Origin: Anaerococcus sp. Marseille-Q7828
Lineage (GTDB): Bacteria; Bacillota; Clostridia; Tissierellales; Peptoniphilaceae
Direction: 5' to 3'
Assembly (NCBI RefSeq): GCF_949769285.1
Contig: NZ_OX458331.1
Span: forward strand, 186,001 to 250,000
DNA: 64,000 bases
Shown: one piece after another, positions 10,922-56,080 of the stretch
Layout: each line of letters opens with the position of its first letter
Position numbering within the stretch: the first letter of the stretch is position 1
Translations under genes and position numbers: made by a program
The notes under the pieces: generated by a model
Databases searched by the model: none
Seen by the model: the letters and a program-made list of their open reading frames with translations, nothing else
Told to the model about the DNA's origin: nothing

Positions 10922-11719
10922 CTAGGCTGGCATAAATGAAGGATTTTCTTTATTCTTGCCAAAGATAGCTTTCCTATTTTGTAAAAACAAAAATATGAAT
11001 ACTATGACAAATATTATTGCTGATAGGGCATTGATAGATGGGTTGATTCCTCTTCTTGCCATGCCGTATATGGTCATAGATAAGTTAGATACACCATTTC
11101 CTGATGTGAAATAGGATATGGCAAAATCATCTATGGATAGGGTAAAAGATATCAAAGCTCCAGCTAAGATACCATTTTTGATATTTGGTATCAAAACTTT
11201 TCTTATGGCATATGACGGTGTCGCTCCAAGATCTAGGGCGGCTTCTATGATATTTTTATCCATAGCTTCTACCGCTGGCAGTACTGTCAAAACAACATAG
11301 GGTATACAAAACATAATGTGGGATAAAATCATGGTAATATAACCAAGTTCCATCCTTAGGAAACCATATAGGCCCATAAGAGATATAGCTGTGATGATAT
11401 CTGGGTTTAAAACTGGTAAGTAGTTGATATTTAATATCATGTTCTTGCGTTTGCCACGTAGTTCTGATATGCCAATAGCTGATAGTGTCCCTATGATTGT
11501 AGCAATTATTGTAGCAGCCACTGCTACAATTAGTGTAGTTCTTACAGCTCCTATAATCTCTGGATTAGAAAATAGGTCTACATACCAATCAGTTGTAAAA
11601 CCAACCCAGCGGCCACGTAGTTTACTGTCGTTAAAAGAAAAGACAATCATCACTACAATTGGTGCGTACAAAAATAAAAATACAAGGATAGTGTAAAAGC
11701 GTTCTAGAAATTTTCTCAT
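10922..11719 (-). CDS. potC: Spermidine/putrescine ABC transporter permease PotC
   Basis: 265 residues, six membrane segments. The EAA loop that contacts the ATPase is visible as EAALDLGATPSYAIRKV. It pairs with PotB to form the membrane channel for polyamine uptake. The start overlaps the end of potB by four bases (ATGA type). It is the last gene of the pot cluster; no terminator is seen after it, only the rplM promoter. Confidence 0.93.
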   Translation of the reverse strand: MRKFLERFYTILVFLFLYAPIVVMIVFSFNDSKLRGRWVGFTTDWYVDLFSNPEIIGAVRTTLIVAVAATIIATIIGTLSAIGISELRGKRKNMILNINYLPVLNPDIITAISLMGLYGFLRMELGYITMILSHIMFCIPYVVLTVLPAVEAMDKNIIEAALDLGATPSYAIRKVLIPNIKNGILAGALISFTLSIDDFAISYFTSGNGVSNLSMTIYGMARRGINPSINALSAIIFVIVFIFLFLQNRKAIFGKNKENPSFMPA

Positions 11720-12540
11720 ACTATATCCCCCTCTAAGTCTCTACCAAATCTTCTTTGAACTGCAAGGGCCAAGATTAGAATGAGCATTAGAATTATCGCA
11801 GTTGCCGATCCAAATCCCCAATTGCCAGTAAAAGTGAATTGTTGGTCTATGAGGTTTCCTATCATATAAACTTTTTGTCCACCCAAGAGGTTTGATACAA
11901 CAAAGGTTGATATGGCTGGTATAAATACCATTATAATTCCTGTATAAACTCCTGGAAGTGAAAGTGGAAAAGTTACTTTTTTAAATACTGTCTTTCTATT
12001 TGCTCCTAAGTCCAGAGCAGCTTCTATAAGGTTTGGGTCAACTTTTCTAAGGGCATTGTAAATCTGTATAACCATAAAGGGCAAAAATTCATAAATCATG
12101 CCCAAAACTACAGCTGTTGGCGTATACATTATTCCAAGCGGGTCCATGCCAAGGCTTGCTAAAAACCTATTTAATACACCATTTCTGCCCAGAAGTGTAA
12201 TCCAACCATAGGTCCTTAAGAGTAAATTTATCCACATAGGCATTATAAAGACAAAGATTAATGATGAAGCCACATTTTCATCCATTCTAGAAATTATATA
12301 GGCAACAGGATATCCTATCAATAAACATCCTAGTGTCGCTAGAAAAGCTATGAGTAAGGTTATTCCAAGCATTTTTAGGTATATAGGCTCAAAAAATCTC
12401 TGATAATTTCTAAGGGAAAATGTGAAATTGTCAAAAGCTATAGATTCTGACCCGTTGAAAGAATACATAAGTATCAATATCAGCGGCAATATTATAAAAA
12501 CTCCCGCCCATACTAGGTAAATATTTAAATATTTTTTCAT
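11716..12540 (-). CDS. potB: Spermidine/putrescine ABC transporter permease PotB
   Basis: 274 residues with six predicted membrane segments and an EAA loop (EAALDLGANRKTVFKKV) matching that of PotC. The N-terminal region SFNGSESIAFDNFTFSL and the MPMWINLLLRTYGW segment are typical of PotB. It overlaps potA upstream and potC downstream by four bases each, which argues for coupled translation and a fixed stoichiometry in the importer. Confidence 0.93.
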   Translation of the reverse strand: MKKYLNIYLVWAGVFIILPLILILMYSFNGSESIAFDNFTFSLRNYQRFFEPIYLKMLGITLLIAFLATLGCLLIGYPVAYIISRMDENVASSLIFVFIMPMWINLLLRTYGWITLLGRNGVLNRFLASLGMDPLGIMYTPTAVVLGMIYEFLPFMVIQIYNALRKVDPNLIEAALDLGANRKTVFKKVTFPLSLPGVYTGIIMVFIPAISTFVVSNLLGGQKVYMIGNLIDQQFTFTGNWGFGSATAIILMLILILALAVQRRFGRDLEGDIV

Positions 12541-13610
12541 GATGGCTCCTCAACTAATGGGTTATCATAAGGATCTGCCTCTATTGTAGGCTCTTCCATA
12601 ACGTGTATAGCATCAGGGTCTATGGCAACTCCTACCTCACTGCCTATTTCTACATTTTCTGGATTGTGGACATTTATAGAAAAATCTTCTCCACTTACTT
12701 TGATATTGTAATAAGTTCCCTTAAACATTGTATTTTCAACAATGCCCCTAAGGCTAGCGTCATTTGATAGGTAGAGGTATTCTGGACGAAGCATAACACT
12801 TACGTCCTTGCCTGGCATAACCTTATCTACACATGGGAATTCGTGGTTTAAAAATCTTACCTTTGACCTATCGACCATCTTGCCCCTAAAGATGTTTGAA
12901 TCTCCAAGGAAATTTGCAACAAAGGCATTTACTGGCTCTTCATAAATGTATTGAGGTGTTCCGTATTGCTCAATGATTCCCTTATTCATTACCGCAATCT
13001 TATCTGACATAGAAAGAGCTTCTTCCTGGTCGTGGGTTACGTATATAAAAGTAATTCCAACTTCTTTTTGAATATTTTTTAGTTCAACTTGCATCCTTTT
13101 TCTTAATTTTAGGTCCAAAGCTCCCAAAGGTTCATCAAATAGTATGATTTCAGGTTCGTTTACCAAGGCACGAGCAATAGCAACTCTTTGTTTTTGCCCA
13201 CCTGAAAGCCTTGATATATCACGGTTACCATATTTAGCCAAGTCAACTAAGTCTAGGGATTTTTGAACTTTTATTTTGATTTCTTTTTCAGGAACTTTTT
13301 TTATCCTAAGGCCAAAGGCAACATTGTCGAATACATTTAGATGAGGAAAAAGGGCGTAGTTTTGGAAAACTGTATTTATATTTCTCTCATTTGGTGGAAG
13401 CTTTGATATGTCTTTACCTTCAAAGATTACCTCTCCACTATCTGGCTTTTCAAAACCTCCAATAATCCTTAGAGTAGTTGTCTTGCCGCATCCTGATGGT
13501 CCTATTAAAGTTAGGAACTCTCCTCTTTCTACCGATAGATTGATGTCATCTAAGATCTTTTTTCCATCAAACTCTTTGTTAATTCCAACTAAATTTAGTA
13601 CTTGACTCAT
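12537..13610 (-). CDS. potA: Spermidine/putrescine ABC transporter ATP-binding protein PotA
   Basis: 357 residues. Walker A GPSGCGKTT (about 38-46), Q-loop FQNYALFPH, signature LSGGQKQR, Walker B ILFDEPLGALD and the switch His (YVTHDQEEAL) are all present. The C-terminal third (from about 240) is a TOBE-like regulatory domain ending in an acidic tail. It energises PotBC. The start ATG follows GAGGGGAA, ten bases after the potD stop. Confidence 0.95.
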   Translation of the reverse strand: MSQVLNLVGINKEFDGKKILDDINLSVERGEFLTLIGPSGCGKTTTLRIIGGFEKPDSGEVIFEGKDISKLPPNERNINTVFQNYALFPHLNVFDNVAFGLRIKKVPEKEIKIKVQKSLDLVDLAKYGNRDISRLSGGQKQRVAIARALVNEPEIILFDEPLGALDLKLRKRMQVELKNIQKEVGITFIYVTHDQEEALSMSDKIAVMNKGIIEQYGTPQYIYEEPVNAFVANFLGDSNIFRGKMVDRSKVRFLNHEFPCVDKVMPGKDVSVMLRPEYLYLSNDASLRGIVENTMFKGTYYNIKVSGEDFSINVHNPENVEIGSEVGVAIDPDAIHVMEEPTIEADPYDNPLVEEPS

Positions 13611-13619
13611 TTCCCCTCC

Positions 13620-14654
13620 TTAATAGCTTGCTAGGACTTCCACCCATTTGTCGTTATAGACTTGCATAAATCCTTCTAGGTCCTTGAACATCTCAAGTTT
13701 TGGCAATTTATCAAAATCGGGATATGCAATATCAGAATCAGCAATATAAGATGGTAACTTTTCTCTAACACCTGATACAACTGACGTGAAGCCTTCCATC
13801 CACTCAGCATTCTTTGCAGAAACATCTGGGTCTGTAAAATAATTTATAAAAATCTCAGCATTTTTTTTATTTTTTGCTCCCTTTGGAATAGCCATAGAAT
13901 CTACTTGTAGGTTCATTCCCTCTTCAGGAATCACATACTCAAGGTTTTCATTTTGACTTTGCATTAAAAGCGCATCCCCAGAATACATAACAGTAATCGC
14001 CGCATCACCTTGGACAACCAAGTCCCTAGCCTCATCGGTAAGATAAGCGTAAACCAATGGCTTTTGTTTGATTAACTCCTCTTTAGCTTCTTCTATTTCA
14101 TCCATATTTGTAGTATTTATAGAATAACCAAGTTTTTGTAGGGCAACCGACATAGAAAGCCTTGGCAAATCGTACATTATAATCTCACCCTTATACTTGG
14201 GGTCCCATAAATCTGCCCATTTTGTTATAGGTTCTTTGATGATATCCTTGTTATAAACTATGCCAAAATGTGATGAAAAATATGGCACTGTGTATTCATT
14301 ATTAGGATCAAAATCAAGGCCCTTGTACTTATCCTCTACATATTTAAAATTAGGGACATTAGAAAAATCAATTTTTTCAAGCATGTCATTTTTCTTAAGT
14401 TTTTGAACCATATAATCTGACGGAAAAATAACGTCATAGTTATTTGATGATTGGGATAACTTTATAAACATCTCTTCATCAGAAGTAAAAGTTTCATAAA
14501 CAACATCAATCCCCGTTTCCTTCTCAAACTCAGAAATCAAATCCAAATCAAGATATTCACCAGCATTAAAAACAACAACCTGGTTTTTTTCTCTTGATGA
14601 GCAAGATGATAGTAATAATATTAAAGCTAATATTAAAAAGCTCTTTTTCTTCAT
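13620..14654 (-). CDS. potD: Spermidine/putrescine-binding lipoprotein PotD
   Basis: 344 residues with a lipoprotein signal peptide (LLLSSC, lipidated Cys 18). The mature part has the PotD fold: NAGEYLDLDLISEFEKETG at the start, SDYMVQKLKKNDML, and acidic and aromatic ligand residues around TDEARDLVVQGDAA. It delivers polyamines to PotBCA. Here potD is the first gene of the cluster, whereas many bacteria place it last; high expression of the binding protein is the likely reason. The ribosome site is AAAGGAGGG. Confidence 0.94.
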   Translation of the reverse strand: MKKKSFLILALILLLSSCSSREKNQVVVFNAGEYLDLDLISEFEKETGIDVVYETFTSDEEMFIKLSQSSNNYDVIFPSDYMVQKLKKNDMLEKIDFSNVPNFKYVEDKYKGLDFDPNNEYTVPYFSSHFGIVYNKDIIKEPITKWADLWDPKYKGEIIMYDLPRLSMSVALQKLGYSINTTNMDEIEEAKEELIKQKPLVYAYLTDEARDLVVQGDAAITVMYSGDALLMQSQNENLEYVIPEEGMNLQVDSMAIPKGAKNKKNAEIFINYFTDPDVSAKNAEWMEGFTSVVSGVREKLPSYIADSDIAYPDFDKLPKLEMFKDLEGFMQVYNDKWVEVLASY

Positions 14655-14750
14655 AATCCCTCCTTTTAAAGTTTAAAATATTTTTTTTATTTTGTTAATT
14701 GATTAATTATCTTTTGGTTTATTTATAGTTTAAGGATATGCCGTTGCACC

Positions 14751-14801
14751 TCGGGGGATAGGAATTAGGGGTAGCGGAGACCCCTTTTTCCTTTCCCCCG
14801 A
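14751..14801. repeat. Large GC-rich inverted repeat (hairpin 1)
   Basis: Nested arms TCGGGGGA/TCCCCCGA (8), GGAA/TTCC (4) and AGGGGT/ACCCCT (6) fold into one long stem with a 7-base loop AGCGGAG. Confidence 0.8.
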
Positions 14802-14824
14802 TCCCCCTATACCTTATACACCCC

Positions 14825-14840
14825 CTCCGCTCCTGCGGAG
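14825..14840. repeat. Short GC-rich hairpin (CTCCGC/GCGGAG)
   Basis: A perfect 6-bp stem with loop TCCT. A second small inverted repeat (TTCGC-TCC-GCGAA) follows at about 14859-14871. Confidence 0.65.
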
Positions 14841-14960
14841 AGCAATGAGCAGTAGAAGTTCGCTCCGCGAATTCTTTTGTTTTGATTGTATTGTGTTACT
14901 TACTGCACCATAAAGCTTAGAAATACAAATATATAGGCTTAGGGGTGCGAAAATTGCTTT

Positions 14961-15046
14961 GTTTTCAAATTGAAGAATTTCGTTAAGAAATCGCACTGTT
15001 TGAGCGTAGCGAGTTTGCGATTTTAGAAATTCAAGATTTAGAAAAC
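14961..15046. repeat. Long imperfect inverted repeat with a GAGCGTAGCGAG loop
   Basis: Left arm elements GTTTTC, GAATTTC and AAATCGCA pair with right arm elements TGCGATTT, GAAATTC and GAAAAC in mirrored order. The roughly 20-base loop contains GAGCGTAGCGAG. The whole spans 86 bases and could form a cruciform or RNA hairpin on either strand. Confidence 0.7.
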
Positions 15047-15091
15047 ACCAATTTTTGAAGTCTATAAGATGGTTTCACCCTATCATATAGC

Positions 15092-15114
15092 AAGAATTTG
15101 CACAGCAAATTCTT
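15092..15114. repeat. Perfect 10-bp hairpin (AAGAATTTGC/GCAAATTCTT)
   Basis: Perfect arms of ten bases around ACA. No T run follows on either strand, so it is not a canonical terminator. Confidence 0.7.
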
Positions 15115-15170
15115 ACACATTCCAGCACCACGCAGTGGCCGTTTCGAGGGGGTAGCGGAAATGGGGGGTT

Positions 15171-15222
15171 AAGGGGGAAAACCAGTTGGGGAGAATCGGA
15201 ACTCCCCTGGGTTTTCCCCCTT
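15171..15222. repeat. Large GC-rich inverted repeat (hairpin 2)
   Basis: Outer arms AAGGGGGAAAACC and GGTTTTCCCCCTT are a perfect 13-bp match; inner arms GGGGAG/CTCCCC add six more with loop AATCGGAA. This is the strongest secondary structure in the gap. Confidence 0.85.
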
Positions 15223-15350
15223 AGGTCGAAGGAACAACCTTAAACTACAACAAAATAAAAGACATATTAATACAAAAAAGTATTTAATTAAATTTTATAA
15301 ATATTCCACAATTAACTAAATAGGTCCCTTTAGGTCGAAGCTATGCCCTT
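15222..15350 (+). repeat. Two copies of a CCTTAGGTCGAAG-type direct repeat
   Basis: TAGGTCGAAG occurs at 15222-15231 and 15331-15340, each preceded by CCCT or CCTT and followed about ten bases later by CCTTAAA. The start-to-start distance is 109 bases. Only two copies are present. Confidence 0.55.
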
Positions 15351-15443
15351 AAATAGCGAAAAAACATAAGATAATCAACCATTTAAAACAAAAATTTTAG
15401 TCCAAGATATTTAAAAAAATATCTTCTCCAACCCTTTTTGGGC

Positions 15444-15477
15444 AAAAAAATTCCTTGCACATTATTTTGAACAAGGA
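15444..15477 (-). terminator. Terminator of the candidate small RNA
   Basis: On the minus strand, TCCTTG (15477-15472) pairs with CAAGGA (15457-15452) and is followed by ATTTTTTT. Confidence 0.75.
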
Positions 15478-15674
15478 TTTTATTATCCTACCTATTTACT
15501 CATTATTTAAACCCTATAGGTAGGAAGTTTATTATTCGGATTTGGCAATTTGCCCCCTGTGGTTGTGAGTTTTAGCCATATAAATGAGTCTAAAGTATGG
15601 ATAAATGTGGATTTCTCCACCAGTTCTTACCCCACAGGTGTTCTTAATGTTTTTTATTTTTTTATTTTATTGTC
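15444..15674 (-). ncRNA. Candidate independent structured small RNA (about 230 nt)
   Basis: On the minus strand a strong promoter (TTGACT, 17 bases, TATAAT; 15709-15681) is followed by a unit that ends in a terminator at 15477-15444. Inside are a long-range pairing CCTGTGG/CCACAGG (15638-15632 with 15562-15556), a GTGGA-GAAA-TCCAC tetraloop hairpin (15620-15607) and a CCTACCTA/TAGGTAGG hairpin (15524-15487). No ribosome site plus open frame is visible. The class is unknown: SRP RNA, RNase P and tmRNA hallmarks were sought and not seen. It could instead be a long trkH 3' untranslated region. Confidence 0.5.
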
Positions 15675-15680
15675 ACTGCA

Positions 15681-15709
15681 ATTATAGTTATTATAGTTAT
15701 AAAAGTCAA
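15681..15709 (-). promoter_or_regulatory. Strong promoter downstream of trkH
   Basis: TTGACT and a perfect TATAAT on the minus strand, spaced by 17 bases, begin 19 bases after the trkH stop. No gene follows for over 1 kb in that direction, so it should drive a non-coding transcript. Confidence 0.7.
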
Positions 15710-28237: not shown

Positions 28238-28244
28238 AAGTAAA

Positions 28245-28500
28245 AACGAAGAAGAGATGAGTAGCTAGATTTAAATTTTATAGAGAGTCCCTGACGGTGG
28301 AAATGGGATAAAGGCTTGTTTAGTGAATAAAAACTCGGAGTACCTTTGGGGATGTCTTGATCTAAAGGCGGGATTGCCCGTTATAGCAATAGAGTATGTA
28401 TGTACTTGATGAGGTGTATATCGCGAGGTGTACATAAATTTGGGTGGTAACACGGCACAATCGTCCCATGGGATGATATGAGCGCGTGTATTTTTTTACA
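28245..28500 (+). ncRNA. T-box riboswitch, specifier AAA (lysine)
   Basis: Stem I contains AGTA opposite GAA (the E-loop), joined by GCTAGA/TTTAGT, and the AGAGAGTCC..GGTGG distal elements. After GAA and one base comes AAA (28329-28331), the lysine codon. The T-box GGGTGGTAACACGG is at 28442-28455; its TGGT would pair with a tRNA ending ACCA, and bacterial tRNA-Lys carries A73. tRNA-Asn (G73) fits less well, so AAC is rejected. The terminator stem competes with this motif. It controls the transporter downstream. Confidence 0.88.
28450..28497 (+). terminator. Regulated terminator of the lysine-type T-box
   Basis: ACACG/CGTGT outer arms and ATCGTCCC/GGGATGAT inner arms form a long hairpin, followed by ATTTTTTT. 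Its 5' side overlaps the T-box motif. Confidence 0.8.
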
Positions 28501-55800: not shown

Positions 55801-55842
55801 AAAAAATCGTCCCTAAATCCTAATAATAGAATCTAAGGACGA
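55801..55842 (-). terminator. Regulated terminator of the methionine T-box
   Basis: On the minus strand, TCGTCCTTAGATTC pairs with GGATTTAGGGACGA over 14 bp (wobbles included) and is followed by TTTTTTT. Confidence 0.9.
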
Positions 55843-56080
55843 CATTAATCGCGTTACCACCTTAATTTATGCATACTCACGCATACATACTCTCATCAAG
55901 TACAAACATACTCTACTTCTATAACGGGAAGTCCCGTGTGAATCTAACTATCGACTCACCCCAATCCAAGGCCATCTTCATCTAAACTTATATCCACCCA
56001 TCTCACCAATACTGGGCTCTCTGTAGAATATCCATCTAGACTACTCTTCTTATCATTTGGTTTTGTAAAATCTATTTGAT
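55801..56080 (-). ncRNA. T-box riboswitch, specifier ATG (methionine)
   Basis: On the minus strand, stem I has GAGTAGTCTAGA, AGAGAGCCC..GGTGAGA distal elements, and the specifier loop GAA-G-ATG-G with ATG at 55975-55973. The T-box AAGGTGGTAACGCG (55863-55850) has TGGT, which fits the ACCA end of tRNA-Met. Stem II/III hairpins (CGGGACTTCCCG and CTCAC-type arms) lie between. It controls the M20-metNIQQ operon. Confidence 0.92.

Follow-up and report, generated by a model that had tools for sequence, protein, structure and literature searches.

A predicted terminator-containing leader RNA of the polyamine-import operon potDABC in Anaerococcus, with features of a transcription attenuator

Leader RNAs of polyamine genes described so far

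In Haemophilus somnus and Pasteurella multocida, leaders ending in a terminator have been described upstream of the operon potABCD (Naville and Gautheret 2010; PMC2965389). As described there, this ABC-leader resembles the RNA reported here in being structured and in carrying a terminator and a proposed antiterminator before a polyamine-import operon, but it belongs to Gammaproteobacteria and to the gene order potABCD, a contrast that we draw from that paper's description. In its account of polyamine sensing, a report of 2023 judged the evidence for earlier claimed polyamine riboswitches unconvincing and described a single class, which is derived from SAM-I and associated with biosynthesis genes (PMC10853860). 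The function proposed here is like that of this spermidine riboswitch, namely RNA-based attenuation of polyamine genes, whereas the architecture differs: the riboswitch has the SAM-I four-stem junction and lies on biosynthesis genes, and our leader has no SAM match. The potE and odc1 motifs are likewise candidate leaders of polyamine genes, and a point of resemblance is that the odc1 motif, as presented in PMC8632094, has a hairpin whose loop forms a pseudoknot, as well as a short frame upstream. Both motifs differ from our RNA in the phyla to which they belong. The odc1 motif exerts its effect at translation start sites, and potE, according to its description there, has no obvious expression platform or covariation. 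The potC motif (RF01751) is alike in being named for a pot gene, but its examples in PMC2864571 are marine only and it was unmatched here.

We analysed a 64,000-nt stretch of an Anaerococcus genome (the window) and found on its minus strand a predicted RNA upstream of potD. A literature search, in which most subscription journals were outside reach, returned nothing that we recognised as describing it. Judged by its sequence, the leader is a new RNA family, while terminator leaders at pot operons are already in print for other bacteria. Our main reading, to which we assign a probability of about 60%, is that the RNA is the 5′ leader of potDABC and works by transcription attenuation, probably as a riboswitch-like polyamine sensor.

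Promoter, terminator and conserved fold

The minus-strand promoter (15709-15681) consists of a -35 element TTGACT (15709-15704) and a -10 element TATAAT (15686-15681) separated by 17 nt, which together match the consensus at 11 of 12 positions, and transcription is predicted to start near 15674. TATAAT was kept in 9/9 homologues with a TTGAC-like -35 at the equivalent place, the latter being cut by the alignment edge in several rows. The predicted RNA of about 230 nt (15444-15674, minus) folds with z = -3.46, and none of 200 dinucleotide shuffles was equally stable. At its 3′ end (15444-15480) lie site B (15480-15474) and an intrinsic terminator, whose stem (15477-15452) and U tract of seven U (15450-15444) fold at -9.9 kcal/mol; a simple pattern scan had not listed it. 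The promoter, the leader and potD follow one another on one strand with an intrinsic terminator before potD, as in a transcription-attenuating 5′ leader. The leader contains no minus-strand frame of at least 40 codons. Searching Rfam 15, we found no family at the gathering threshold for the leader in the window or at four loci of relatives; even with E relaxed to 10, the leading matches fell far short of it. No Rfam SAM model of the SAM-I family matched the leader even at E up to 10, the spermidine variant included; we know of no separate Rfam model for that variant. These results confirm the promoter of the preliminary description, show it to be near-consensus, and bear out its terminator, its lack of a reading frame and of a known family, and, as a prediction from promoter, fold and terminator, its promoter-to-terminator RNA with conserved structure. 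As a side observation, two T-box leaders in the window exceeded their Rfam threshold, at 28240-28471 (+) and 55832-56065 (-).

The structured domain (15556-15638, minus) comprises P1 (15638-15632/15562-15556), P2 (15620-15616/15611-15607) and P3 (15605-15596/15580-15571), and is followed by hairpin P5 (15525-15517/15494-15486; whole element 15486-15525, minus), whose conserved loop contains GGGUUU (15514-15509). Across nine sequences, double-sided changes were found at one pair in P1, one in P2, four in P3 and two in P5, so that 8 of the 46 pairs of these helices changed on both sides, a tally that counts sequences, not events, among few and related relatives. Sliding the partners by 1-3 columns left 0-1 such pairs, and 0/500 shuffles reached eight. 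These double-sided changes suggest a conserved structured domain of the kind expected of a riboswitch, with a putative aptamer, and the stems claimed earlier, including the long-range closing pair, show compensatory changes in the relatives. The hairpin said to be GNRA-capped is present in the window, but the cap is not conserved: as read from the alignment, it occurs on P2 in 5/9 sequences. In the RNAalifold output the 5′ end also paired with the U tract (columns 3-10 with 204-211); this helix, made up of invariant pairs only, was left out.

The suggestion of a 6S-like RNA agrees with the length and the RNA's own promoter only. Against it, a search with E up to 10 gave no RF00013 match, the fold combines a branched domain with hairpins, and the genome has a separate 6S candidate, so this suggestion is unsupported and has next to no chance of being correct. 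That candidate (G000:C1:1404209-1404376, minus) scored 35.9 bits against an Rfam cut-off of 46.4, and 6S of the genus seems to be under-called by Rfam.

The loop and stem of P5 also hold a three-codon frame, AUG AGU AAA UAG (15492-15503, minus), behind an AGGG-like site. In translation-coupled attenuation, a ribosome on this frame would block or free the P5 loop and so set the terminator, with the ribosome as the target of the polyamine. All nine sequences keep AUG and UAG, the Lys codon varies as AAA/AAG only, and most sequences have the AGGG-like site 8 nt upstream, all of which fit such a mechanism. On the other hand, nine related sequences are few, UAG is also part of the P5 stem so that pairing may explain it, GGU replaces AGU in one genome (G012, Ser to Gly), and the AGGG-like site is weaker in G043; we consider the mechanism improbable. 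A 15-codon frame starting in the P3 strand (AUGGCUAAAACU...) was rejected as a conserved leader peptide, its start being lost and its frame shifted in G012.

Distribution and gene context

We searched 41 genomes at the DNA level and obtained matches to the leader in eight, six of them full-length (own genome included); the other two covered about 30 bases of the A-rich 5′ end. PotD searches brought three further RNA-carrying genomes, giving nine of 31 Anaerococcus genomes with one copy each. A covariance model built from the nine leader sequences scored 234.9-267.7 bits in these genomes. Among the other 240 of the 249 genomes of the order no score exceeded 28.2 bits, and the best scores elsewhere were 31.1 bits among 391 genomes of the class and 37.1 bits among 398 of the phylum. 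The large searches used stricter filters, under which distant homologues could escape. The weak outside matches (about 24-37 bits) were rejected as homologues: in the five alignments inspected, similarity lay mainly in the terminator and most of P1-P3 was absent, the 37.1-bit match coincides in part with the end of an unrelated frame, and those beyond the five aligned were dismissed on score alone. A scan of genome contigs with a degenerate pattern of the 5′ part, which may omit the window's own record, returned seven records, all from Anaerococcus, including A. octavius, A. nagyae and A. provencensis.

In 9/9 genomes the RNA lies upstream of a polyamine-import operon that begins with potD. 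In the window the operon occupies the minus strand and consists of the polyamine-binding-protein gene potD (13620-14654), the ATPase gene potA (12537-13610), and the permease genes potB (11716-12540) and potC (10922-11719). PotA scored 358.8 bits against the cut-off of 355.6 of the polyamine subfamily TIGR01187; the best model for potB was PotB, below its own cut-off, and potC was named from its position and homology searches, without a family scan. All nine RNA genomes carry a PotD 72-100% identical to that of the window, and the remaining 22 of the 31 have a PotD only 36-39% identical and no RNA; the co-occurrence counts related genomes and perhaps reflects one event. The order is potD-potA-potB in the nine, with potC next in the window and in three 8-kb loci that were read. 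Elsewhere in the genus it is potB-potC-potD in 21/21 loci read (from 21 of the 22 genomes), and the same order was found in 21/21 loci read of other genera of the family, where PotD is 50-55% identical and also last. The genus thus holds two kinds of pot operon, potD-first in nine genomes and potD-last in the rest, which looks as if the operon had been rearranged in one group and displaced in the other.

The gene just upstream of the RNA is trkH in 4/9 genomes and a thiamine-salvage-like gene in 5/9 (thiD-, tenA- or cytosine-permease-like, named by reading the sequences without a family scan). Since the upstream gene varies, the RNA goes with potD and not with trkH, and a link to trkH, which adjoins the RNA in only four genomes, was rejected. 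The last modelled base of the RNA lies 23-37 nt before the potD start in 6/9 genomes, with the potD ribosome site just past the terminator, and the gap widens to 677, 735 and 788 nt in G021, G044 and the window, respectively. The informative neighbour is the downstream potD, which is masked in the window by a repeat element.

The spacer between leader and potD in the window (14655-15443) is mostly this high-copy intergenic repeat. Using 14660-15440 as the query, we found 33 matching stretches in the window's own genome, 29 in G044 and 30 in G021. Among these three genomes the RNA is 95-99% identical, whereas the repeat is 81-83% identical; the better conservation of the RNA argues that it is still under constraint. 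The repeat has inverted arms. In G021 its inner 580 bases run opposite to those of the window and G044, with both ends in the same orientation, and the inner segment may have been flipped or inserted twice.

The same conservation across a repeat of 677-788 nt, together with a strong promoter and a terminator of its own, would suit a small RNA that acts in trans and is just a neighbour of potD, with its 3′ end made by the terminator and with readthrough being incidental. Against this stand the exclusive link to potDABC, the short gap in six of the nine genomes, and the absence of any second copy above 21.4 bits in the nine. Such an RNA is therefore unlikely, and the free-standing small RNA of the preliminary description is judged improbable on the same grounds: the RNA was found only with potDABC and mostly ends close before potD.

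Proposed switching and the likely signal

The 5′ segment ACAUUAAGAACA (15639-15650, minus) is invariant in 9/9 sequences. We found that it is complementary over 5 + 6 pairs to UGUUC (15473-15469) and UAAUGU (15464-15459) of the terminator in all nine, with one pair falling in a gap in G043. This proposed helix, P0, and the terminator would be mutually exclusive. The terminator loop is itself nearly invariant and complementary to the 5′ segment; a near-invariant loop is unusual in a plain terminator. The P0 pairs never vary, so P0 has zero covariation. When the terminator was shuffled, 1.6-4% of the shuffles paired as well as P0 does; for the 5′ segment the share was 0.7-7%. P0 alone falls short of the terminator state in stability by 3-4 kcal/mol. 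The invariant segment could thus be the antiterminator, although its backing from shuffles is weak. If the P5 loop paired with AAAUCC at site B, or with the second copy of this sequence at site A (15538-15543, minus), about 6 kcal/mol would be gained. In nearly all sequences, such pairings were no better than shuffles (9-44% as good), except at site A of G018, where near 1% of shuffles were as good. As a proven switch, the loop pairing was rejected, and it is kept as a guess.

The proposed switching model fits this anatomy. RNA polymerase would either stop at the terminator (off) or continue into potD (on). With the operon on, the invariant segment near the 5′ end would pair with the 5′ arm and loop of the terminator, perhaps aided by the P5 loop pairing with site B. 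An imported polyamine, or a signal of one, would bind the P1-P3/P5 fold and withhold this segment, upon which the terminator would form and import would be shut off; the sign of this response is a guess from the usual control of importers.

We favour the leader reading because the RNA occurs only before potDABC and tracks one kind of PotD, because the gap to potD is short in six genomes and the upstream genes differ, because eight pairs covary on both sides against 0-1 when slid, and because the near-invariant terminator loop complements the invariant 5′ segment. Counting against it are the 788-nt repeat that parts leader and potD in the window, and the facts that P0 lacks covariation and is weaker than the terminator and that the loop pairings stay at shuffle level. 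Taken together, the RNA is probably a cis-acting leader with a conditional terminator, and direct binding of a polyamine, which would make it a riboswitch, has somewhat less than an even chance. An RNA-binding protein instead of a metabolite might read the attenuator: a structured leader with a terminator would serve it, and PMC2965389, in its discussion of pot leaders, leaves this option open. The large multi-helix domain and the invariant unpaired bases would, however, exceed the needs of most protein attenuators, and we regard a protein-read attenuator as unlikely.

For the proposed attenuator, a polyamine is the likeliest signal, as judged from the genes. Among solved structures, the nearest to PotD are the Lmo0810 protein and spermidine/putrescine-binding proteins. 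PotD scored 221.8 bits, far below the NCBIfam equivalog cut-off of 582, so its substrate is not certain. AdoMet decarboxylase was absent from 9/9 RNA-bearing genomes, which indicates that the common spermidine route seems to be missing and that import may be the main source of spermidine; Pfam matches to spermidine synthase were weak (32.4 bits or less) and for the most part partial.

More tentatively, and with the odds against it, the leader might represent a new class of polyamine riboswitch that has a fold unrelated to the SAM-I-derived one, shuts off import, uses its own 5′ end as antiterminator, and originated in a single Anaerococcus lineage together with the shift of potD to first place in the operon. 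If true, an import operon would carry a second, unrelated fold, polyamine sensing by RNA would have more than one origin, and the restriction of this fold to nine genomes of one genus, together with the changed operon order, would mark a young leader gained with the rearrangement of the operon.
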